Notes under the pieces: model-generated
The model's database searches: none
What the model was told of the DNA's origin: nothing
Seen by the model: only the letters and a program-made list of their open reading frames with translations
Program-made: the position numbers and the translations under genes
From: Candidatus Moraniibacteriota bacterium
Lineage (GTDB): Bacteria > Patescibacteriota > Minisyncoccia > Moranbacterales > GCA-2747515
DNA length: 10,177 nt
NCBI GenBank assembly: GCA_027069365.1
Contig: JALXES010000120.1
Coordinates: 1-10,177 of the forward strand
Direction: 5' to 3'
Part shown: positions 145 to 10,177 of the stretch, one piece after another
Layout of the letters: every line of letters begins with the position of its first letter
Numbering within the stretch: position 1 is the first letter of the stretch

Positions 145-723
145 TTATGATGCTGTCGTCAATCGTTCCTCACACACACGCCAATCAAGTCCGGCGATAA
201 ATGCATCCATGTACGCTGCACGGTCCAACCCGTACTCTGTGATAAACGCATGCTCAAACACATCCATGACAACAATCGGCGCCGCGCCGGCAAGGTGGCC
301 AAGGTCGTGCTCGTTAATCCACGTATTGAAGAGCGTGTCACTCTCACGGTCGTACGCCAGCACCACCCAGCCAATGCCACGCATCGCGCCACATGCGCGG
401 AAGTCTTCTTCCCACTGCGCCACGGAACCAAAAGCCTTCGTCAACCTCTCCACAAGTAACGGCGCGTCAGAGCTGCTTGTGCTATCTTTTGAGAGGTTGC
501 CAAAGTAGAGCTCGTGCAGGCGCATACCGTTGAACTCCCAGCCAAAACGGCGGCGCAACTCTGCAAAACTTGGCGTGCCCTTTGCGGCCTGTGCCATCTG
601 CTCACTGAGCGCGTTGGTGTTGGCAACGTACCCGGCATAGAGTGTGAAGTGCATGTCCAAGAGGGCATCACTGAACCCTGCCAAGCCCTTGAGATGCGAG
701 AAATCTTTTTGTATATATGTCAT
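145..723 (-). CDS. sod: Superoxide dismutase, Fe/Mn family
   Basis: Converts superoxide to oxygen and hydrogen peroxide in the cytoplasm, using one Fe or Mn ion. The 192-residue product has the four expected metal ligands: H25 (in LLDMHF), H70 (in RLHELYFGN), D154 and H158 (in MDVFEHAF). The second-sphere residue that holds the metal-bound water is Gln in classical Fe and Mn enzymes. Here the N-terminal position is Gly (G66) and the C-terminal position appears to be His (H139, in INEHD). The first helix is one residue shorter than in E. coli SodB between H25 and the gateway tyrosine (Y32). No signal peptide is seen. It lies 85 bases downstream of the peroxiredoxin gene, so the peroxide it makes can be removed by its neighbour. 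The start has no clear Shine-Dalgarno sequence, but the N-terminus fits the family. Metal preference cannot be read from sequence. Confidence 0.95.
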   Translation of the reverse strand: MTYIQKDFSHLKGLAGFSDALLDMHFTLYAGYVANTNALSEQMAQAAKGTPSFAELRRRFGWEFNGMRLHELYFGNLSKDSTSSSDAPLLVERLTKAFGSVAQWEEDFRACGAMRGIGWVVLAYDRESDTLFNTWINEHDLGHLAGAAPIVVMDVFEHAFITEYGLDRAAYMDAFIAGLDWRVCEERLTTAS

Positions 724-740
724 AGACGTGGGATGTCTCT

Positions 741-751
741 AGTGTATATTA
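741..751 (-). promoter_or_regulatory. Weak candidate -10 region for sod
   Basis: In the 85-base gap upstream of sod, the minus strand reads TAATATACACTAGAG, which holds overlapping -10-like hexamers (TATACA, TACACT) about 20-25 bases before the start codon. No good -35 hexamer sits 16-18 bases further up. A short imperfect hairpin (GAGAGA-CAC-TCTCTT) lies upstream, near 768-782, without a proper T-run, so readthrough from the peroxiredoxin gene is also possible. Confidence 0.3.
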
Positions 752-808
752 CCTTGTGAAGCGGAATGAAGAGAGTGTCTCTCCACCCCAATCACAGGAC
801 AATTCGCA

Positions 809-1426
809 CTAGATCTTGCCCACCAAGTCAACACCCGGCGTCAGCGTCTCGTCACCCGGCTTCCAACTTGCCGGACACACCATCCCTTCGTGCTCGCGCA
901 CAAACTTCGCCGCCTCCAGCTTGCGCAGCAACTCGGCAGCGCTGCGGCCAATATCATTGTTGTTGACTTCATATGCGGCCAGCTCACCATCCGGATTGAT
1001 GAGGAATGTGCCGCGCAGTGCGAGACCCTCATCATCAATGTATACGCCAAAGTACTTCGCCAGGTGCCCCGTTGGGTCTGCTGCCATTGGATAAGTAATC
1101 TTACCAATTGCCGGTGACTTGTCGTGCCATGCCTTGTGTACAAACGCCGTATCCGTGCTCACACTCACAATCTCCGCATCCAACTCCTGGAACTTTGCAT
1201 AATTCTCGGCCAGTTCCTCCAGCTCCGTCGGACACACAAACGTGAAGTCCGCCGGATAGAAGAATAGCACAAGCCACTTTCCTTTGAAGTCGGAAATCTT
1301 TACACCCTCTTTAATCTCATCATTCTGAAACACAGTAAATGTGAGGTCACTGACCTTCTCGCCAATAACCGGCGCGCGATTGAATGTCTCACCACACTCA
1401 AGACAAATATTCATTGCTTCTTCCAT
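809..1426 (-). CDS. ahpC: AhpC-type 2-Cys peroxiredoxin
   Basis: Reduces hydrogen peroxide and organic hydroperoxides through a reactive cysteine. From the ATG at 1426 the product is 205 residues. The peroxidatic cysteine is C65 in FYPADFTFVCPTE, a conserved Arg is R138 (LRGTFLI), and the resolving cysteine is C184 in MVCPASWKPG. The end TPGVDLVGKI is typical of bacterial AhpC. An extra CxxC (C8, C11; ICLECG) precedes the thioredoxin fold. The frame opens further up at an ATG at 1477, but that lies only 11 bases after the -10 box, so the true start is more likely 1426, or 1414, which has GGAAG five bases before it. No AhpF or thioredoxin reductase partner is in the window, so the reductant is unknown. 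It is followed by sod, forming an oxidative-stress pair. Confidence 0.93.
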   Translation of the reverse strand: MEEAMNICLECGETFNRAPVIGEKVSDLTFTVFQNDEIKEGVKISDFKGKWLVLFFYPADFTFVCPTELEELAENYAKFQELDAEIVSVSTDTAFVHKAWHDKSPAIGKITYPMAADPTGHLAKYFGVYIDDEGLALRGTFLINPDGELAAYEVNNNDIGRSAAELLRKLEAAKFVREHEGMVCPASWKPGDETLTPGVDLVGKI

Positions 1427-1488
1427 AGTGTTTATTTTTTCTCTAGTTACAGCCCCGACACATCCAGTGTCTGCCATGGAGCTCTTCT

Positions 1489-1622: not shown

Positions 1623-3959
1623 CTAATCAAAATCACTATCCTTGCACTTCTCTGTCGGTGCGGGCCCTACAATAATTTTTCGATCCTGTTTCTCATACCA
1701 TTTTTCAATACCTTTCTGCCATGCTCGATACTGCGGGTCCTTTTCAGGATGTTTTGGCATACCGTCCGTAGGATCATCCCTCTTCACATAATGCAGAATT
1801 GGGTGTGCATCAATAAACTTACGCCTCTTGACATCTACTTTGTTGCGTTTGCATGCATCAGACTTCAGGCACCAGAGGTTCTTCTTCTTTGAGATACGGC
1901 ACACTTTCTTTTCCTTCATTGGTGGCACCGTACCATTAATAAGATACCGCCCTTTCTTTTGCACACGACCTTGCTTGTCCTCTTCTCTTCCTCCCTTTTG
2001 ATTATCGCTTCCATCCGGAAAGTGCTCAATCACCGTACCCTCCAGCGCCTGTGCCATGAACGCATGCCAGATTGGTCCCGCCACAACCGACCCGGCGGCA
2101 CCGCCACGCATCGGACGGTTGTCATTGTTGCCCACCCACACACCGACGGCCAATGACGGAGTGTACCCCATCGTCCACGCATCGCGATAACTGTTGGTCG
2201 TTCCCGTCTTTGCGGCAACCGGGCGCTCATCAAACCGCAGCGGATTGTCCGGCACAAATGCCGGAACGCGATAGTCATTGTTGGACAAAATATTGCTCAG
2301 AGCGGCAACGTACTCCTCATCAACGACGCGCGTTCCATCACTATCTTCAAATTTCTCCACAACCGCACCATCCTTATCCTCAATGCGTAGGATACTGACC
2401 AGTTCCTTGCGCACACCCATGTTTGCCAGTGTGGCATAGGCGTGTGTGTGGTGGAGCAACTGCACCTCACCACCACCGAGCACGAGTGAGAGTCCGTAGC
2501 GCCGTGGATTGTCCAGACCCGTCAGACCAAGTTCCTTTGCTAGCTGTGCCGCATTCTTCACACCCACCAGGTAGAGCGCCTTGACGGCCGGGATATTCAG
2601 CGACATCGCCAGTGCGCGCTTGAGTTTTACCGGTCCGCGAAACGACCCATCGTAGTTCTGTGGCTCGTATGGCGTTTCACCATCATCAAAGCGTGTCGGC
2701 ACGTCATACAGGATTGTGTCCGGCGTGTATCCGCGCCGCAGCATCTCCAGGTAGACGTACGGCTTAAACGATGACCCCGGCTGGCGGAAGCGCAGTGCCA
2801 CGTTGACTTGCCCATCAATGTCCTTGTTGAAGAAGTCTGCTGATCCTACCATCGCCAGCACCTGGGCAGTTCGTGGATCAATCGCCACCAGCGCCGCATT
2901 CTGAGCATTATACTTCGCATTCTTCTGCACACCCTCGCGCACAACATCCTCTGCCAGTTGCTGTTTCTCCCAGTCCAGCGTTGTAATGACACGCAAACCT
3001 CGCGTCTGGATTTCCTCCGGCGTGTAGTGGTCCTCCAGATACTCGCGCACGTACATCACAAAGTGCGGCGCATTGATATTCTCACGATTAGCTACAACCT
3101 TCTTGAGCGTATCAATCTCTTTGGCACGCTCTGCTTGCTCCTGCGTGATATAACCCAATCGCGCCATTTGGTCCAGCGCGTAGTGCTGCCGTCGCACAAG
3201 TGCTTCCAGGCGCTTTGGGTTGGCACTGTAGGGCGAGTACCGTGACGGCTGCTGCGGTAGCGATGCCAAGAGCGCTGCCTCATCTAGGGTCAACTCCCGT
3301 GCATGCTTGTCAAAGAACGTCTGTGCCGCCGCCTCAATGCCGTACGCGTTGGAGCCATAGGGAATTTCATTGAGGTAGAGCGAGAGGATTTCGTCTTTGC
3401 TGAATTTTCGCTCCAGCTCTAGCGAGAGAATCACCTCTTTGAGCTTGCGCTCATACGTGCGCTCGCTACTCAACAGCGTGTTTTTGATGAGCTGCTGCGT
3501 AATCGTTGAGCCGCCGCTGCGCCGCCCGCCAAATAACTGTGGTGCGATCTGTGAGAGTGCCGCGCGGAAGATAGATGTGAACTTTACACCATGGTGTCGG
3601 TAAAAATCTTGGTCCTCCAGTGCAATTGTGGCGTAGCGCACAACTGTCGGAATTTCAGTAAAATCAATGACCGTCCGACGTTCCTCGCCGTGGATGTCAT
3701 ACAGCAAGACCGTGCCTGTGCGGTCGTAAATTTTGGTGGACTCCGCCGCCTCGCGCGTGCGCAACTGATCTGCCGGCGGCAAGTCCTTGGCGTAATACCA
3801 AAATACACCTCCGGCACCAATAAGCCCCAGCATGCCGCACACCAGTGCACCCACAAACAGCCACCGCCATACGCACCGCGCGATCCCCCTTTTTTTCTTC
3901 TTGCTATTGTGTGATGCGCCACGCATCTTGCGCCGCACCACCACGTGCCGTGCTCCCAT
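1623..3959 (-). CDS. Class A penicillin-binding protein (PBP1A-like)
   Basis: Polymerises and cross-links peptidoglycan outside the membrane. The 778-residue product begins with a basic tail, then a membrane anchor (about 32-56). The glycosyltransferase 51 domain (about 75-250) has catalytic E115 in EDQDFYRHHG, the GGSTITQQLIKN motif (149-160) and the SKDEILSLYLNEIPYG stretch (187-202), with the second glutamate near E183. The transpeptidase domain (about 330-640) has nucleophile S396 and K399 in GSSFKP, S453-L-N455, and K584-T-G. After it comes a tail of about 130 residues that is rich in Lys and holds cysteines C687, C697, C703 and C772; I recognise no domain there. The start is supported by GGAG and AAGGG just before the ATG. 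It is likely transcribed alone. All catalytic motifs are intact, so the cell should make peptidoglycan. Confidence 0.95.
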   Translation of the reverse strand: MGARHVVVRRKMRGASHNSKKKKRGIARCVWRWLFVGALVCGMLGLIGAGGVFWYYAKDLPPADQLRTREAAESTKIYDRTGTVLLYDIHGEERRTVIDFTEIPTVVRYATIALEDQDFYRHHGVKFTSIFRAALSQIAPQLFGGRRSGGSTITQQLIKNTLLSSERTYERKLKEVILSLELERKFSKDEILSLYLNEIPYGSNAYGIEAAAQTFFDKHARELTLDEAALLASLPQQPSRYSPYSANPKRLEALVRRQHYALDQMARLGYITQEQAERAKEIDTLKKVVANRENINAPHFVMYVREYLEDHYTPEEIQTRGLRVITTLDWEKQQLAEDVVREGVQKNAKYNAQNAALVAIDPRTAQVLAMVGSADFFNKDIDGQVNVALRFRQPGSSFKPYVYLEMLRRGYTPDTILYDVPTRFDDGETPYEPQNYDGSFRGPVKLKRALAMSLNIPAVKALYLVGVKNAAQLAKELGLTGLDNPRRYGLSLVLGGGEVQLLHHTHAYATLANMGVRKELVSILRIEDKDGAVVEKFEDSDGTRVVDEEYVAALSNILSNNDYRVPAFVPDNPLRFDERPVAAKTGTTNSYRDAWTMGYTPSLAVGVWVGNNDNRPMRGGAAGSVVAGPIWHAFMAQALEGTVIEHFPDGSDNQKGGREEDKQGRVQKKGRYLINGTVPPMKEKKVCRISKKKNLWCLKSDACKRNKVDVKRRKFIDAHPILHYVKRDDPTDGMPKHPEKDPQYRAWQKGIEKWYEKQDRKIIVGPAPTEKCKDSDFD

Positions 3960-4024: not shown

Positions 4025-4218
4025 TCACTCCTCTATTGCATTTAGTTCAACATCTGTTATCCCCAACTGGTCAAGTACCCAGATGTGGCGCTCGTTTGTT
4101 GGGTCATACTTCCCCACAGAGAAATGCCGCACCTCATCAGAACCCTCAAGTGGTCAAACCATCGCTCATCCTGCACCTTTTCTTGTGTATGCGTTTGAGG
4201 GATTTGCTCATGATTCAT
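4025..4218 (-). pseudogene. Possible small gene broken by a one-base frameshift
   Basis: The 272-base gap between the deacetylase and the penicillin-binding protein is not empty. An ATG at 4218, 13 bases after the deacetylase stop, opens a hydrophilic frame (MNHEQIPQTHTQEK, reaching DERWFDHL near 4150). There the sense appears to pass into the -1 frame, which is open from 4153 to a TGA at 4025 and ends VLDQLGITDVELNAIEE. Joined at the DHL codons, the product would be about 64 acidic residues. A one-base deletion (real or an assembly error) explains it more simply than programmed frameshifting, since no slippery heptamer or downstream structure was noticed. No family was recognised, and random open frames could mimic this. 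Confidence 0.35.
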
Positions 4219-4231
4219 AGATTTTCAAAAC

Positions 4232-4900
4232 TTATCCCATTGATTCTTTCTTTTGGTTATGCAGATAATCATATCGCACCAGTTGATAGTTGTCACGTAT
4301 CAATGTGCGAAAGACATCATCGGTAATGAAGACTAACTCTTCTTCGCGCTGTTGGTTATATGGATAGGAACACTGTGCATCGTAGTATCCCGGATGCGTT
4401 ACCAATTCTGTTACCGCACACGTATTTTCTGCAAGCTGATGCATCAGTTTTTGTGTTCGTGTAGGGTGCCAACTGATGAAGCGGTCCGATGTCGCAATGG
4501 CATGGCGCCGCAGCACCGAACGGTCTTCTGCATACCGCGACCGCACCGGCAAATGATGCGCCTGTGCAACAGCGATGACACTGGCAATATTTTCCGGTGC
4601 AATATGACAGTGTTGGTGTCCATCAAGATAGTCCGGCAAGCGATCAAATAGTGTGTGAAAATGCTGTACTTGCGCCTCCACATCTTCCACAGTTGCACCG
4701 GAAGGTAGCTCCAAATGTACACCGAGTGCAATGTCTCGCGCACAAATCTTTTCCACCTCCACAGACGACCCATACACCATAACAGAAACATTGCGCACAA
4801 TGCCAGCCGTCACGGCGGCAACAATGCCATTATTAAATCTGGCACTCATGCCGTAATCATCCGCTGTTATAAGAAGGTTCTTCCGATGCATTCCCGCCAC
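4232..4900 (-). CDS. YdjC/ChbG-like carbohydrate deacetylase
   Basis: This family removes N-acetyl groups from amino sugars such as chitooligosaccharides, with a bound metal. Family motifs are all present in the 222-residue product: TADDYG (12-17, with D14/D15), GVHLEL (60-65, H62), DGHQHCH (93-99) and THPGYY (168-173). The substrate cannot be predicted. It is somewhat shorter than many family members (about 250 residues). The frame begins with GTG at 4900; an ATG at 4891, preceded by GGCGGGA, is an equally good start and would give 219 residues. It starts 9-18 bases after the stop of the upstream ATP-grasp gene, so it is the last gene of the four-gene cluster. No signal peptide is visible, so it probably acts in the cytoplasm. 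By eye it and the upstream gene are richer in A+T than the yebC, ruvC and fusion genes. Confidence 0.87.
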   Translation of the reverse strand: MAGMHRKNLLITADDYGMSARFNNGIVAAVTAGIVRNVSVMVYGSSVEVEKICARDIALGVHLELPSGATVEDVEAQVQHFHTLFDRLPDYLDGHQHCHIAPENIASVIAVAQAHHLPVRSRYAEDRSVLRRHAIATSDRFISWHPTRTQKLMHQLAENTCAVTELVTHPGYYDAQCSYPYNQQREEELVFITDDVFRTLIRDNYQLVRYDYLHNQKKESMG

Positions 4901-4909
4901 TTACGTCAC

Positions 4910-5887
4910 TTACTTGCTGTGCAGCACGCTACCAATTGATGCGGCAAATGCCTCAAAATTGCGCTCTTTTATATCTTCCGTGCCAACAATGTGCAGCAAA
5001 TCAAATCCCGGCGTCGTATTCATTTCCACCAGAAACGGTCGCCCATTGTCATCAAAGATGAAATCCAATGAATAGTGTGCGTGGGGAAAGGTTTTAAGAG
5101 TCTGTGTGATATCACGCGCCATTTCCATTACGCGTGATGGAATGTTTTCATCCGGTACAAGCACGGCGCGCGCCCCTTGGTGAAAATTAGTAAACAATGA
5201 CCCCTCTGCCGCAATACGTGAAAGCGCATACACAAGTTTGTGGTCCGTATAGATGAGGCGCAAATCAGCAACCTCATCTCGTTGCGAAAATCCGGGGATA
5301 CCCTTCGTACTAACGATAAATTCTTGCACAATCACGGGATATGGGAGAGACGCGGTGTTGACATCCTTTTTCGCACCGATAAAGATGCCGAACCCCCCGC
5401 TGCCATGCAGCGGCTTAATCACCGTTTGACTGCCACTCATCTGCTCCAGCGCAGAGCGCACTTCCGCCGCATTACTGGCAAGAATTGTTGCTGGCATATG
5501 TGCGCTGAATAGCATATATTGTGAAAGCTTGTTGTTGGTGATTGTACGAAAGAGCGGATGGTTGTAAATTGGTACCTTCCGCGCTATCGCCATTTTACGA
5601 TCAAAAAGTTTGTAGTCGTACTTCCCGGCTGTCTTGTCATAAATCGCATCCGGCACAATAGGATTATCAATTTTTATCCATCGTCCATTCTCATATGTCC
5701 ACGCCTTAGTAAACGCTGTAATCTCATCATCAAACCAGTTAATTGACGCGCGATAAAATTTTATATCATACCTTTCGGCGCGCATATACCAATCTTCAAA
5801 TGAAAGGCGCGTTTGTTTTGATGCATCACGAAAGGGTACATCCTTGTACCAATCATCTCCATTATAGATTACGACAATATTCTTCAT
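4910..5887 (-). CDS. ATP-grasp domain protein, RimK/YheC-like ligase
   Basis: ATP-grasp enzymes activate a carboxylate as acyl-phosphate and join it to an amine. In the 325-residue product an N-terminal region (1-115) precedes the ATP-grasp fold. Visible elements are NNK (118-120), VIKPLHGSGGFGIF (156-169; K158 and the glycine-rich loop), VQEFI (187-191), ADLRLIY (207-213), and the metal-binding end YSLDFIFDDNGRPFLVEMN (272-290; D275, E288, N290). NTTPGF follows, as in RimK and D-Ala-D-Ala-ligase relatives. Its N-terminal pre-ATP-grasp part does not suggest a specific known substrate. It starts 8 bases after the fusion gene stop, with no clear Shine-Dalgarno sequence, so translation is probably coupled. 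It may be the second ligase of an envelope-modification pathway. Cyanophycin- or glutathione-synthetase-like roles are not excluded. Confidence 0.85.
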   Translation of the reverse strand: MKNIVVIYNGDDWYKDVPFRDASKQTRLSFEDWYMRAERYDIKFYRASINWFDDEITAFTKAWTYENGRWIKIDNPIVPDAIYDKTAGKYDYKLFDRKMAIARKVPIYNHPLFRTITNNKLSQYMLFSAHMPATILASNAAEVRSALEQMSGSQTVIKPLHGSGGFGIFIGAKKDVNTASLPYPVIVQEFIVSTKGIPGFSQRDEVADLRLIYTDHKLVYALSRIAAEGSLFTNFHQGARAVLVPDENIPSRVMEMARDITQTLKTFPHAHYSLDFIFDDNGRPFLVEMNTTPGFDLLHIVGTEDIKERNFEAFAASIGSVLHSK

Positions 5888-5895
5888 ATTTTTTA

Positions 5896-7305
5896 CTATT
5901 TACTTACATCCACCAAAAACTTCCCCAGGTTACGCTTGCCGATGATTGCATCATAGCGCAATTTGGAGCGGTCTACAATGTTCACATATGCGGGAACACG
6001 CACATCGTCCATCACAAAAAACACTTTCACCACCGGGCGTACCGTGGCGCCGGAAGAAGAGAACACAACGGCGACATCGGCGAGGTTCGGAATGGCGGTG
6101 CCGTGTGCGGCCAAAATATCTTTTTTGATTGCCGCTTCATTTTCCGGTATGAGAGTGTACGTATCCAACGGCAGCCGATCAAACGCATCCAGTGTCGCAC
6201 CGAATCCCAGCTCGCGCGCGAGGGCGCGGTCAATGGATGTGGAGTACGCGCCAGTGTCAATCTTTGCCTTCACCGTCACGCGCTTGTCATCCTTGCCGAT
6301 GAATGTCACTTCCTCCACCGAGCCGATGACCCGCTTGCCGGAGGTTTGCTCCACAGTTTCCTCAATCTCCCCACCAAAGAGGTCTTTGCCCATGCGAATG
6401 CCGCGTGCCGCTGTTTTAATCGTCAGTCCCGCCACGCGCTCCAGACGCTCTTTGAGGCCGGCCATATTGGCAATCTGGATGGAGAGCCCCGGACGCGCAT
6501 TGAGCTCCAAGAACACCGGTCCACGCTCGCGATCAATCGCCACGTCCGCACCCAGGAACCCCAGTCCACTGGCCTCCTGTGCACGCACGGACATCATCAG
6601 GATATCGTCCCAGTATGGTATCTTGATGCCGGAAAGCAACATGCGCGTTCCCGGTGCATAGGTGATGACCTTGCCCTTGCCTTGGATGGCGGTCGTGGTG
6701 GTCCCCGTCGCCATGTCAATGCCCACGCCCACGCCGCCAAGTTGCAAGTTTGCCTTGCCGCCGGACTCCCGCGTCGGCAAGCGCAGCATCGCCATGACCG
6801 GCACGCGATTGTAGACGATGATGCGGATGTCCGGGATGCCACGATAACTGTACGGCTTAAAGAGCTTCAGGAGTGTCAAGCGCTCTTCAAAGAATGCCAC
6901 ATCCTGCACGCCGGAGAGCGAGAACGCCCCGTCAATGATGTTGCTGATGTGATTGGAGAGGTCCTGCGCTGTGATGACGCCACCACCTGCCGTCACCCAG
7001 GCGTTGTCCATGCCTTTTTTGCGCGCAAACACCACAATGATGCCGCCGCCACCAAATCCGCGGTTGGGTTTCAGGACAAATGAATCCGGTAGCGTCGACC
7101 AGTCAAATGCCTCCAGTTCCTCGTGCGTGGCAATCTGTGCGATGAGGCGCGGCACCGGCACACCAGCCGCGCCAAGCACCTCTTTACTCAGAATTTTGTC
7201 ATCAGCAATTGCGCGCGCGTTCTTGAGGTTTAGTGGTCGGACATACTCAAGGTTGCGCGCGTTCATGCCGAGAATTTTATGCGCTTGTGCTAAAATCTCC
7301 ATCAT
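5896..7305 (-). CDS. Alpha-L-glutamate ligase-related ATP-grasp protein fused to RimB-like aspartyl protease domain
   Basis: Two domains in 469 residues. Residues 1-300 match the RimK-related E-ligase family: LGMNARNLEYVRP (12-24), DDK (35-37), FVLKPNRGFGGGGI (76-89), GIPDIRIIVY (156-165), VPVMAMLRLPTRESGGKANL (168-187) and the metal site FLELNARPGLSIQIAN (265-280; E267, N269). Residues 325-469 resemble the RimB/'ATP-dependent zinc protease' family with a retropepsin-like fold: VKAKIDTGAYSTSID (345-359; the DTG triad at 350-352), VRPVV (422-426) and a closing DAIIGKRNLGKFLVD (452-466). In relatives these are usually separate adjacent genes. The start, a double ATG, lies one base after the stop of the 7TM gene, with weak GGATG upstream, so the two are translationally coupled. 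It presumably adds and processes amino acids on an unknown acceptor. Confidence 0.92.
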   Translation of the reverse strand: MMEILAQAHKILGMNARNLEYVRPLNLKNARAIADDKILSKEVLGAAGVPVPRLIAQIATHEELEAFDWSTLPDSFVLKPNRGFGGGGIIVVFARKKGMDNAWVTAGGGVITAQDLSNHISNIIDGAFSLSGVQDVAFFEERLTLLKLFKPYSYRGIPDIRIIVYNRVPVMAMLRLPTRESGGKANLQLGGVGVGIDMATGTTTTAIQGKGKVITYAPGTRMLLSGIKIPYWDDILMMSVRAQEASGLGFLGADVAIDRERGPVFLELNARPGLSIQIANMAGLKERLERVAGLTIKTAARGIRMGKDLFGGEIEETVEQTSGKRVIGSVEEVTFIGKDDKRVTVKAKIDTGAYSTSIDRALARELGFGATLDAFDRLPLDTYTLIPENEAAIKKDILAAHGTAIPNLADVAVVFSSSGATVRPVVKVFFVMDDVRVPAYVNIVDRSKLRYDAIIGKRNLGKFLVDVSK

Positions 7306-7306
7306 A

Positions 7307-7999
7307 CTATTTCATCCGTGTCAGCACATCACGAAAGCGTATATACTCCGCAACACGTAACCCCGTCCACTTGCCCAGTAGCACGTTGACGGGAATGACT
7401 AGGAGTACACTGAATGGATGCGCAAAGACAACGTTCTGCACCGTCTGCGATGACAGCAGCGCGTAGCCACACAGCGCCACCACAAATGTCTCCAGCGCAA
7501 GGAGCAGCGCTGTCTTGGTGCCTTTTTCAATTTGCACCGCCACAAACTTCTCTGCAATCACCACCAGCACAATGAGCGGAAAGACGTAGACCGTCGCGAA
7601 ACCCGTACGCTGCAGCGCCGCGCCCAGCGCCAAAATCCCCAGCACCGTGAACGACAGCAGCGTCATCGTAATGGCCACGCGCGGCAGATAGAGCAGGCGC
7701 ACCTTCTTGAGTACCACACGCATCCCCATGCCGATGGCAATGACGGCGATGTAGATGGCAATGCCGTAGCGCAGGTCATAGAACATCGCCCAGAGGTCAA
7801 AGCCCTCGTAGCGCGCATCAGAAATCATAAAAAACACCAGCGCAATGATGGACGGTGTATAGATACCAAACGCCTTCACGCCAATAACTTGGCGGAAGAA
7901 CGCAATCAACGTCGCCACGAGAGGAAAGATGAGCAGCAGCGCAATCGTCTGGTCCGGAATACCGAGGCCGACAATCATGCTATTAATCCATGGGCTCAT
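7307..7999 (-). CDS. 7TM membrane protein of the transglutaminase-associated family, without the transglutaminase part
   Basis: The 230-residue product is almost entirely membrane-embedded, with about seven hydrophobic segments (roughly 17-36, 45-60, 77-95, 108-129, 136-153, 163-183, 193-208). Conserved stretches of the family normally fused to an inactive transglutaminase domain are visible: GIPDQTIALLLIFPLVATLIAFFRQVIG in part (13-40), the FGIYTPS loop (44-50), RLLYLPR (101-107), VFPLIVLVVIAEK (139-151), and the C-terminal LLGKWTGLRVAEYIRFRDV (207-225). The extracellular transglutaminase-like domain usually found upstream is absent: the protein starts just before the first membrane segment. 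In other bacteria this family sits beside the same RimK-related ligase, which is the next gene here. It may anchor the ligase or move its product. The start has no clear Shine-Dalgarno sequence. The 62-base gap to ruvC has no strong promoter. Confidence 0.9.
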   Translation of the reverse strand: MSPWINSMIVGLGIPDQTIALLLIFPLVATLIAFFRQVIGVKAFGIYTPSIIALVFFMISDARYEGFDLWAMFYDLRYGIAIYIAVIAIGMGMRVVLKKVRLLYLPRVAITMTLLSFTVLGILALGAALQRTGFATVYVFPLIVLVVIAEKFVAVQIEKGTKTALLLALETFVVALCGYALLSSQTVQNVVFAHPFSVLLVIPVNVLLGKWTGLRVAEYIRFRDVLTRMK

Positions 8000-8061: not shown

Positions 8062-8574
8062 CTATGCGCTGCGCATCACGCGACTGGCACTGTGGCAAAA
8101 TGCTACCGCCAGCGCGTCCGCCGCATCATCCGGCTGCGGGATGCTCTTCAAGCCGTAAATCCGCACCACCATCTCCTGCACCTGCCGCTTGTCCGCGCGT
8201 CCGTTGCCGGTGACCGCCTGCTTGATCTGCAGCGGCGTGTACTCACCAATCACCAAGCCGTGCTGCTGCGCTGCGAGGAGCGCCACGCCGCGCGCTTGCG
8301 CCACTGTGATGATTGTTTTTTGGTTCTTGAAGTAGAAGAGTTGCTCAATGCCAACTTCCTGCGGCCGATACTGCGCGATAAGGTCGCAGAGATCCTGCGC
8401 AATCTCCACGAGGCGCTCGGCATCCGTGCGGTCTTTGTGTGTGGTGATGCACCCGTGTGCTACGTGCGCCACGCGCCCGCCACCGGCGTCATCAATCACC
8501 GCCCAGCCAACGATTGCCGTCCCCGGATCAATACCCAGAATCCGCACCGGTTGCACCATACCCTTACGCGACAT
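8062..8574 (-). CDS. ruvC: Crossover junction endodeoxyribonuclease RuvC
   Basis: Resolves Holliday junctions by paired nicks, working with RuvAB in recombination and repair. From the ATG at 8574 the product is 170 residues, a usual length. The four acidic catalytic residues are present: D16 in ILGIDPGTA, E77 in VGIEQLFYFKNQKT, and D150 and D153 in PDDAADALAVAFCH. The start at 8574 overlaps the end of yebC by 11 bases and has AGGAG ten bases upstream. A later ATG at 8559 would give 165 residues but has a poorly spaced ribosome site. The overlap implies coupled translation with yebC, a common arrangement. ruvA and ruvB are not in the window. Confidence 0.95.
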   Translation of the reverse strand: MSRKGMVQPVRILGIDPGTAIVGWAVIDDAGGGRVAHVAHGCITTHKDRTDAERLVEIAQDLCDLIAQYRPQEVGIEQLFYFKNQKTIITVAQARGVALLAAQQHGLVIGEYTPLQIKQAVTGNGRADKRQVQEMVVRIYGLKSIPQPDDAADALAVAFCHSASRVMRSA

Positions 8575-9280
8575 TATCAAAAATCTCCTGCACATCGTCC
8601 ACGTCATCCAGCGCTTCCGCGAGCTTCTCGTACGCGGCGCGGTCCGCTTCCGCGAGTACCACCGGCTGCGTCGGCACATAGGCGATGCGCATCTCACGCA
8701 CCGTCACGCCGGCATCCTCCAGTGCGCTGCGCACCGCGTGCACGTCACTGACCGCCGTAGTCGCCACTACCGCCCCATCCTCCTGCACCTCCACATCCTC
8801 GGCACCGGCGTCAATTGCCGCAAGCTCCAGATCATCCGCATCCGCGCCCTCCAGCGCCAGCTGCCCCACGTGCCGAAACTGAAACGCCACGCCGCCACCG
8901 GAAACAAACTTCCCGCCGTTCTTCTTGAGTGCTGTCTTGACGTCTGTCAGTGCACGGTTGGTGTTGTCTGTCGCGCACACGACCATCATCGCACTACCAC
9001 CGGGACCCATCGCCTCGTAGACCACTTCCTCTATGCGCGCACCCTCCGCCGCCTCACCGGTGCCGCGCTTAATCGCTCGCTGGATATTGTCCTTGGGCAT
9101 ATTGACCGCGCGCGCCTTCTCAATCGCCATCTTGAGTGCCGCATTCATCTCCGGGTCGCCGCCACCGCTTTGTGCTGCCAGCGTAATCTCCCGCGCCGCC
9201 ACCGTAAACACCTTTGCGCGCTTGGCGTCCGTCGCCGCCTTTTTGTGCTTAATACTTGACCATTTATTGTGTCCGGACAT
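8564..9280 (-). CDS. yebC: YebC/PmpR family protein
   Basis: Long annotated as a transcriptional regulator; more recent work links members of the family to relief of ribosome stalling at proline-rich stretches. Which applies here cannot be told from sequence. The 238-residue product starts with the hallmark MSGHNKWSSIKHKKAATDAK and carries family stretches NMPKDNIQRAIKRGTG (about 61-76), YEAMGPGG (about 88-95) and the NGGKFVSGGGVAFQF region (about 120-135). The C-terminal part is acidic. The reading frame extends up to a TTG at 9295, but that is only about 8 bases from the predicted transcription start. The ATG at 9280, with GGAAAG just before it, is the better start. It heads the yebC-ruvC unit. 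Confidence 0.95.
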   Translation of the reverse strand: MSGHNKWSSIKHKKAATDAKRAKVFTVAAREITLAAQSGGGDPEMNAALKMAIEKARAVNMPKDNIQRAIKRGTGEAAEGARIEEVVYEAMGPGGSAMMVVCATDNTNRALTDVKTALKKNGGKFVSGGGVAFQFRHVGQLALEGADADDLELAAIDAGAEDVEVQEDGAVVATTAVSDVHAVRSALEDAGVTVREMRIAYVPTQPVVLAEADRAAYEKLAEALDDVDDVQEIFDNVA

Positions 9281-9309
9281 AGTTCTTTCCGCCAATATCT
9301 TACCCCTCC

Positions 9310-9418: not shown

Positions 9419-10177
9419 TTAGCGCTTCAGTCCCAGCACGTCATCCATGGATTCACCCAGACCGGTGAGCGCGAGTGTGACAACTGCCGGATGGGGTGTG
9501 ATGCCACGCAGAGCTGCGCGGTTGATCGTGACGCGTGTGAGATCGTCGTGCTGCGCGTGCGTCGCGGCTGCGACGGTTTGGGTTGCGCGCGCGAGAAGTG
9601 CGTTGAGCCACAGCGCGATGCGCGTGCGCCATGACTGCGCACCCGTGTCTGTGCGCACAACCGATGCGCCGCGCACGTCCGACGCACGAGCGTCTTTTTC
9701 TTGCTCTGCCGGAACGCCAAATTCATTGCGCCACGCCTGCGCGATGATGGCACGCACTGTTGCTGCATCCGGAGACGTCTTTACCACATGCTTTTGCGAT
9801 TTTTTCTTTGCTTTTTTTGCCGGTACGTGCGAGAGGTCCCACACCCAGCCGCCACCGTCACGCTTCGTGCGCTTGCGGTAGACGGCATTATCCGGAATGC
9901 TCTTGTGCCCTTCCGGCACGTCGTACGTTACGCGGTGTGCCACGCTCCCGTCCGGACGACGCACTTCCAGCACGCCGCCGCTATTGGGCAATGTTATCGC
10001 CGCGTCGTCCGCTGTTACGCGCCACTTCTCTCCGGCGCGGAGCTTCTTTTTTGTGTCAATGCGCAGAGGGTGGTTGACGAGTGTCTTTGTATTGCTACCT
10101 GTGGCAATACTCCAGCCGGCAAGTCGTATCGTTTTGTGTGTGGTGTTTTGGAGGAGGATGTATTCTTTCTTGGTGTC
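9419..10177 (-). CDS. Lamin-tail-domain protein, C-terminal part (5' end beyond the window)
   Basis: The frame is open from the right edge (10177) to a TAA at 9419, giving 252 visible residues; the true start lies outside. The first ~85 visible residues look like a lamin tail domain, an Ig-like beta fold found in secreted or surface proteins of many bacteria. They include EYILLQNTTHKTIRLAGWSI near the left end (about 5-24), then LRAGEKWRV (about 46-54) and GGVLEVRRPDGSVAHRVTYD (about 67-86). A GGGWVWDLS segment (about 109-117) and a basic stretch, VPAKKAKKKSQKH, follow. The last ~120 residues are Ala/Arg/Thr-rich with no membrane segment and no recognised domain. In this phylum such domains often sit in surface nucleases or multidomain exported proteins, but the visible part shows no catalytic motif. 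Function unknown. Confidence 0.8.
   Translation of the reverse strand, partial: DTKKEYILLQNTTHKTIRLAGWSIATGSNTKTLVNHPLRIDTKKKLRAGEKWRVTADDAAITLPNSGGVLEVRRPDGSVAHRVTYDVPEGHKSIPDNAVYRKRTKRDGGGWVWDLSHVPAKKAKKKSQKHVVKTSPDAATVRAIIAQAWRNEFGVPAEQEKDARASDVRGASVVRTDTGAQSWRTRIALWLNALLARATQTVAAATHAQHDDLTRVTINRAALRGITPHPAVVTLALTGLGESMDDVLGLKR

Follow-up and report, generated by a model that had tools for sequence, protein, structure and literature searches.

The closest described system to the locus analysed here is the rlo operon of Pseudomonas aeruginosa, which in the accessible part of its published account encodes a retropepsin (RloA), a 7TM protein (RloB) and an ATP-grasp enzyme (RloC) (PMC12239564). 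According to the same part of that account, RloA cleaves polyglutamate, loss of RloA leads to wall-type defects and mutations in rloB or rloC relieve these defects of rloA mutants (PMC12239564), which suggests that RloC probably makes a product that is harmful unless trimmed. We examined a stretch of 10,177 nucleotides (the window), which is an entire contig of an assembly of 748,695 bases in 128 contigs (completeness 91.85%, contamination 4.34%), and we take its order to be Candidatus Moranbacteria (Patescibacteria). The original prediction for this stretch was a cluster of genes for a 7TM protein, a RimK-related ligase fused to a RimB-like protease, a second ATP-grasp protein and a YdjC-type deacetylase. 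It regarded the association of a 7TM protein, a RimK-related ligase and a RimB-like protease as already known from other bacteria, and this association is that of the rlo operon as the accessible part of PMC12239564 describes it.

All named cluster genes were placed on the minus strand by ORF calling (Table 1), with intergenic gaps of 1 base (7TM/fusion), 8 bases (fusion/ATP-grasp) and 9 bases (ATP-grasp/YdjC), the last of which is based on a GTG start codon for YdjC and becomes 18 with the alternative in-frame ATG at 4891. The predicted four-gene cluster on one strand with tight gaps was thus borne out by ORFs, strand, spacing and domain scores, and the peptidoglycan synthase gene expected next to it proved to encode a penicillin-binding protein (PBP) of the PBP1A family (517.7 bits, cut-off 508.75), at a distance of 272 bases from YdjC. 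Hydrophobic segments were confined to the 7TM protein and the PBP among the cluster proteins (hydropathy). Behind the PBP gene (145-1477, minus strand) lie genes for an AhpC-like peroxiredoxin and an Fe/Mn superoxide dismutase (SOD), a pair that was found in this position only in the window and in one genome of the same genus (G001) among the loci examined. At the other end, an ORF of 190 aa (9422-9991, minus strand) is a relative of a longer family (F11) present in 42 census loci; zero matches were obtained for it when Pfam and NCBIfam were searched.

Table 1. Features of the cluster and its borders in the window.
Feature	Position	Strand	Basis
PBP1A-family class A penicillin-binding protein, conserved right border of the slot	1623..3959	-	domain searches, census
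MATCAP-type carboxypeptidase, C-terminal remnant (40 codons + stop)	4025..4147	-	tblastn, frame reading
Putative YdjC/ChbG-type deacetylase, short form	4232..4900	-	PF04794, five catalytic positions
Predicted second ATP-grasp ligase, type AG2w	4910..5887	-	ATP-grasp models, structure model, invariant residues
Fusion protein, RloC-like ATP-grasp + RloA/RimB-like retropepsin	5896..7305	-	domain searches, DTGA motif
7TM membrane protein, RloB-like 7TM part without extracytoplasmic domain	7307..7999	-	PF14402, hydropathy, AlphaFold model
RuvC, conserved left border, start codon uncertain	8062..8592	-	ORF, domain search, census
YebC/TACO1 family protein, conserved left border	8564..9295	-	ORF, domain search, census

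The 7TM protein (230 aa, seven hydrophobic segments by hydropathy) matched only the 7TM part of PF14402 (7TM_transglut), with 90.9 bits (cut-off 25). Its AlphaFold model had a pLDDT of 86 and gave no significant match when searched against the PDB, and this search therefore lends no support to a role in export. The N-terminal ligase of the fusion protein (about residues 17-291) matched ATPgrasp_ST with 231.4 bits, and the fusion protein further matched TIGR02291 (rimK_rel_E_lig) with 292.2 bits, below the cut-off of 314.2, Zn_protease with 27.6 bits (cut-off 27) and, weakly, the RloA retropepsin models. The retropepsin motif DTGA is located at residue 350 (window 6247-6258), and DTGA or DTGS was detected by script in 127/129 aligned fusion relatives, the two exceptions being DSGA in G046 and a DTGA beyond the stretch searched in G121. 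By hydropathy, with no signal-peptide program, no hydrophobic segment was found in the fusion protein. Homologues of the fusion protein were found in 134 of 184 relatives and in 122 of the 128 genomes of the order (protein search), and those of the 7TM protein in 130 and 118 (the latter counted from the listing), respectively.

Homology searches with each cluster protein covered 184 relatives, 128 of which make up all available genomes of the order, and in 133 genomes the region of the fusion gene (18 kb at most) was retrieved for the calling of ORFs and families. A core was not called in one retrieved locus (G079), and the census comprised 121 genomes of the order; the simple longest-ORF caller overlooked RuvC in G000 as well as YdjC in G115, and it broke up some genes, MATCAP being called as two pieces in both G043 and G070. 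The gene order was conserved as YebC, RuvC, 7TM protein, fusion protein, a variable slot and PBP, and the slot was complete to the PBP in 92 genomes of the order. Counting labelled families only, these 92 slots held 44 different sets and 58 ordered contents, or 67 contents when unlabelled ORFs were counted as well, which means that the slot differs almost between one species and the next. One to four extra ATP-grasp genes were present in 86 of the 92 slots and belonged to four called families, F5 (RimK-like), F6 (which includes the window type), F10 (near the ATP-grasp half of cyanophycin synthetase) and F34. Further slot families were a GT4 glycosyltransferase (12), MATCAP (14) and YdjC (10 called, and G115 by tblastn), F25 carrying HExxH (8), a Mur ligase (7) and GNAT (6). 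An F10 gene stands directly before an F18 (Mur ligase) gene in four complete slots (L199, L175, L188 and L213, in G049, G094, G108 and G116), a pair that resembles the two halves of a cyanophycin synthetase encoded separately; a representative of F18 was scanned, which lies outside the slot in G020, and it matched MurE from position 69 and lacks the N-terminal domain. The addition of a second ATP-grasp enzyme and a deacetylase, which had been put forward as possibly undescribed, is thus not peculiar to a single genome, given the extra ATP-grasp genes in nearly all slots and a YdjC clade in 11 genomes, but the idea of a fixed four-gene unit had to be abandoned, the window showing one among many slot contents.

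Successive slot genes on the same strand were separated by a median of 6 bp, with 87% of 248 gaps not exceeding 50 bp, and 21 of 272 genes in complete slots were on the opposite strand. This tight same-strand spacing across the census indicated that the arrangement exceeds chance. The median distance from the last slot gene to the PBP was 87 bp and the corresponding distance in the window is larger still, so that the PBP may be a mere neighbour. G001 has flanks identical to those of the window, including AhpC and SOD, and its slot consists of a single F10 ligase without YdjC, which implies either that the product differs or that the genes are loosely needed.

High turnover would also be expected if the site next to ruvC and the PBP gene were a generic insertion hot spot for unrelated cargo, and the GC3 of the window's two slot genes (0.47 and 0.46, compared with 0.59-0.71 for the other called window genes) fits such insertion. 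The tree of the fusion proteins (129 sequences) required 9 changes for YdjC (present in 10/95), 16 for AG2w (19) and 11 for GT4 (12), and on a flanking-gene tree of 72 genomes the changes numbered 8, 11 and 11, respectively. Control families behind the PBP changed 8, 6 and 7 times (F7, F8 and F9, present in 21, 27 and 25 of 42) or 11, 10 and 7 times (F15, F16 and F21, present in 14, 15 and 8 of 42); the latter three turn over as fast as the slot families, perhaps as an artefact of the 5-kb cut, and the control for turnover thus gave a mixed result. A hot spot with unrelated cargo is nevertheless improbable in view of the presence of ATP-grasp genes in 86/92 slots, the operon-like gaps and the fusion of MATCAP to a ligase elsewhere in the phylum (see below).

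For the second ATP-grasp protein several ATP-grasp models gave 45-51 bits, above the Pfam cut-offs, and its structure model (pLDDT 94.1) had ArgX/LysX, glutathione synthetase and RimK as best PDB matches (E 5e-16 for ArgX). Residues K158, D275, E288 and N290, which we take to be the ATP/Mg residues of the superfamily, were invariant across 61 aligned sequences, and by modelled fold and these residues the protein is a predicted ATP-grasp amide ligase. Matches at E 1e-10 were obtained in 73/184 relatives, 26 of them of the window type (AG2w), defined by at least 47% identity; the remainder had at most 36%, except for a fragment of 45 residues from the G012 gene. The window type was located in the slot in 25 of the 26 genomes having it and directly behind the fusion gene in 18/19 slots, and it was mutually exclusive with other F6 ligases (0/19 co-occur; Fisher 1.3e-5, kinship ignored). 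Some of the PDB matches were the graspetide ligases PsnB and AMdnB, and these matches together with the ATP-grasp fold would agree with slot enzymes that modify a ribosomal precursor peptide, as in the graspetide (RiPP) loci reported in CPR bacteria in the accessible part of PMC8939145. This possibility is extremely improbable, since the best structural matches are instead ArgX/LysX, GshB and RimK, the three gaps in the cluster are too small for a precursor gene and what the 272-base gap contains is a MATCAP remnant; no precursor peptide gene was found between the cluster genes beside the window ligase.

The YdjC protein (222 aa) reached 112.6 bits against PF04794 (cut-off 29.7). The catalytic positions of K. 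pneumoniae ChbG, given as D10, D11, H61, H125 and H206 in the accessible part of PMC9402603, align with D14, D15, H62, H95 and H169 of the window protein, and these five residues were invariant in 30 aligned YdjC proteins (alignment A3), while a motif regex missed one motif each in three of ten slot YdjC proteins (G014, G043 and G114). Its score above the Pfam cut-off and its five conserved catalytic residues make the window protein a predicted YdjC/ChbG deacetylase. YdjC matches were found in 39/184 relatives at E 1e-5 and in 11 at E 1e-15. The close homologues, in 11 of the 128 genomes of the order and in six families, were located in the slot in all 11 genomes and directly behind an ATP-grasp gene in 9/10 called cases; given that so few genomes possess YdjC, deacetylation appears to be optional.

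All 12 slots with GT4 contained AG2w, with GT4 as the next gene (Fisher 1.4e-10; kinship ignored), and in independent pairs GT4 followed AG2w 9-10 times compared with 0 in the reverse direction (p about 0.004, two trees). YdjC was associated neither with AG2w (3/10 vs 16/82 slots, p = 0.43) nor with GT4 (together in 1/92 slots). Glycosyltransfer, deacetylation and amino-acid ligation are the established three-step logic of mycothiol and bacillithiol, and a similar small-molecule pathway could combine an N-acetylated sugar conjugate formed by GT4, its deacetylation by YdjC and the coupling of an amino acid to the resulting amine by an ATP-grasp enzyme. Matches of GT4 to BshA and MshA (5e-14 and 3e-11) and the AhpC and SOD genes behind the PBP in the window and G001 point in this direction; however, these GT4 matches are weak, family-general and far below cut-offs, GT4 and YdjC share just the one slot, AhpC and SOD occur in 2 examined loci, and the 7TM protein and the proteases are left without explanation, which makes a pathway of this kind very unlikely.

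The 40-codon remnant behind YdjC, which the original prediction had not included, matched slot MATCAP proteins in a tblastn search against the window, with identities reaching 68% and a lowest E of 4e-14; it has no start codon, and in-frame stops lie upstream. The slot homologues carry HExxxH, and of the representatives scanned the first had a Pfam score of 87.9 bits and the second 63.2 bits for TIGR02421, under its cut-off of 338.65. A fuller set, consisting of a window-type ligase, YdjC, MATCAP and PBP, is found in G014, a member of the window's family, and a second remnant is present in G042, likewise a YdjC slot; a search at E 1e-4 in loci without a called MATCAP gave none beyond these two. 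The slot harbours MATCAP in 15 of 22 MATCAP-bearing genomes of the order. MATCAP was present in 6/10 YdjC slots compared with 8/82 others (p = 6e-4; Fisher, kinship ignored), and in 8/10 compared with 8/82 when remnants were included in a table compiled by hand, which becomes 8/11 vs 8/81 with G115 (YdjC, MATCAP none seen). In independent pairs the link was 3 to 0 and not significant. The module accordingly included a MATCAP-type peptidase, which the window cassette has lost, the remnant likely being the decayed partner of YdjC.

Beyond the order, fusion relatives were encoded in 113 of 379 genomes drawn from the phylum, with reading frames of at least 770 aa in 36 of the 113, and 34/36 of these long genes continue in frame behind the RloC-type ligase into a MATCAP match (Pfam-confirmed in three). 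At L270, L271 and L272 (G402, G522 and G330), an RloC-type ligase and MATCAP form one frame of about 800 aa. The retropepsin motif in the three Pfam-checked genes is DTS, DTG or gone, that is, altered or lost in two, and judging from these three cases only, the MATCAP peptidase may replace the retropepsin in RloC-MATCAP genes. Of 20 further regions outside the order 19 had a called core, with an ATP-grasp family gene first or second behind it in 11/19, and in 8/19 there is a 7TM protein about 490-560 aa long. One of these long 7TM proteins (L259 in G205, >500 aa) has an N-terminal PKD domain by Pfam; the Moranbacteria are without PKD.

RimK adds residues to the C-terminus of ribosomal protein S6, and animal members of the MATCAP family are tubulin tyrosine carboxypeptidases in a cycle that adds and removes tubulin tail residues. 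The locus could accordingly modify protein tails, with ligases adding C-terminal residues, retropepsin and MATCAP removing them, and GT4 and YdjC being incidental or serving another step. That sequence comparison places RimK nearest among PDB entries, that RimB/RloA cut polyglutamate and that all enzymes look cytosolic by hydropathy are in keeping with this, but the conserved 7TM protein beside the ligase and the recurrent acquisition of sugar enzymes by the slot are not, and a fixed protein target leaves the 44 sets in 92 slots unexplained; tail modification therefore seems fairly unlikely.

We favour instead, with a probability of about 0.48 and thus at slightly less than even odds, a swappable-cassette form of Rlo, in which a cytosolic machine would attach amino acids or peptides to a sugar-bearing precursor of the envelope and trim them. 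Given a ligase and a protease in one protein, together with sugar enzymes, amide ligases and an added peptidase, a chain on a sugar-bearing precursor is the simplest common product. The fixed pair would comprise the 7TM protein and one protein that both builds (RloC-like part) and cuts (retropepsin part) an amino-acid or peptide chain joined by amide bonds, and the slot genes would determine the product, with extra ATP-grasp ligases selecting the amino acid or the acceptor, sugar preparation falling to GT4 or YdjC, and MATCAP taking off the last residue. For the window this would mean that YdjC deacetylates an N-acetylated sugar precursor in the cytosol and so exposes its amine, that an amide is then made on the deacetylated sugar conjugate by the second ligase, and that the fusion protein extends and trims the chain, with the sugar contributing either the amine or the carboxylate to the amide. 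The product would reach the envelope helped by the 7TM protein, beside the wall-building PBP, and might there influence the wall. Part of this had been anticipated in the original prediction, which proposed a sugar-linked envelope modification. The sugar link now has independent support because the AG2w ligase type partners GT4, whereas action on the finished wall was not upheld: the deacetylase, ligases and protease are without predicted membrane segments, which argues for a cytosolic precursor as their substrate.

We know of no organism in which the substrate or product of RloC is known, and the partners found here (GT4, YdjC and ligase-fused MATCAP) narrow the function of RloC/RloB towards testable substrates. 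In Moranbacteria, and probably many Patescibacteria, the locus might be serotype-like and give an exported glycoconjugate a peptide code that varies, with phages or host cells perhaps exerting the selection, a view that we regard as possible but rather doubtful. If true, such variable decoration would constitute a surface-diversity system in small-genome bacteria living in close cell contact.

Compared with ChbG/YdjC deacetylases (7VI8; accessible part of PMC9402603), the window YdjC keeps the zinc ligands, base and acid; it is shorter, about 30 residues being absent after the HLEL motif in the alignment, and it scored 79.3 bits against the chitin disaccharide deacetylase model NF002559, below the cut-off of 227. 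The slot MATCAP homologues have HExxxH in common with the MATCAP/QEGLA metallocarboxypeptidases (PF08014, TIGR02421) and differ from the known family in being bacterial and linked or fused to RloC-type ligases, and the window has no more than a remnant. In cyanophycin synthetase an ATP-grasp half is joined to a Mur-ligase half; F10 matches the former (182 bits) and F18 belongs to the Mur ligases, but the two are separate genes, far below the equivalog cut-off and absent from the window. RimK/RimB of Pseudomonas and E. coli likewise pair a cytosolic ATP-grasp glutamate ligase with a retropepsin, and the window system differs from them by its membrane partner and cassette; against the TIGR00768 RimK cut-off of 143.4 the fusion protein reached 44.9 and the second ATP-grasp protein 44.4 bits, both below.

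With the rlo operon, the locus shares a PF14402 7TM protein, a TIGR02291-like ATP-grasp enzyme and a RimB-like retropepsin encoded together, and the direct adjoining of the PF14402 7TM gene and the TIGR02291-type ATP-grasp gene is the arrangement characteristic of Rlo. Rlo is further characterised by the cutting of glutamate-rich chains and by a role in osmotic tolerance and in the wall. RloA is secreted, whereas the window retropepsin is the C-terminal part of a ligase and is without a membrane segment, and RloB has an inactive transglutaminase domain fused to its 7TM part, a domain missing from the window 7TM protein (61.6 bits against the RloB model NF052267, compared with 900). Since the RloA and RloB NCBI models are far from reached and TIGR02291 is just missed, we class the locus as a variant working like Rlo and not as a member. 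Unlike the rlo operon, the locus has a slot in which ligases, sugar enzymes and peptidases vary, and no description of the slot was found in a literature search of limited coverage.
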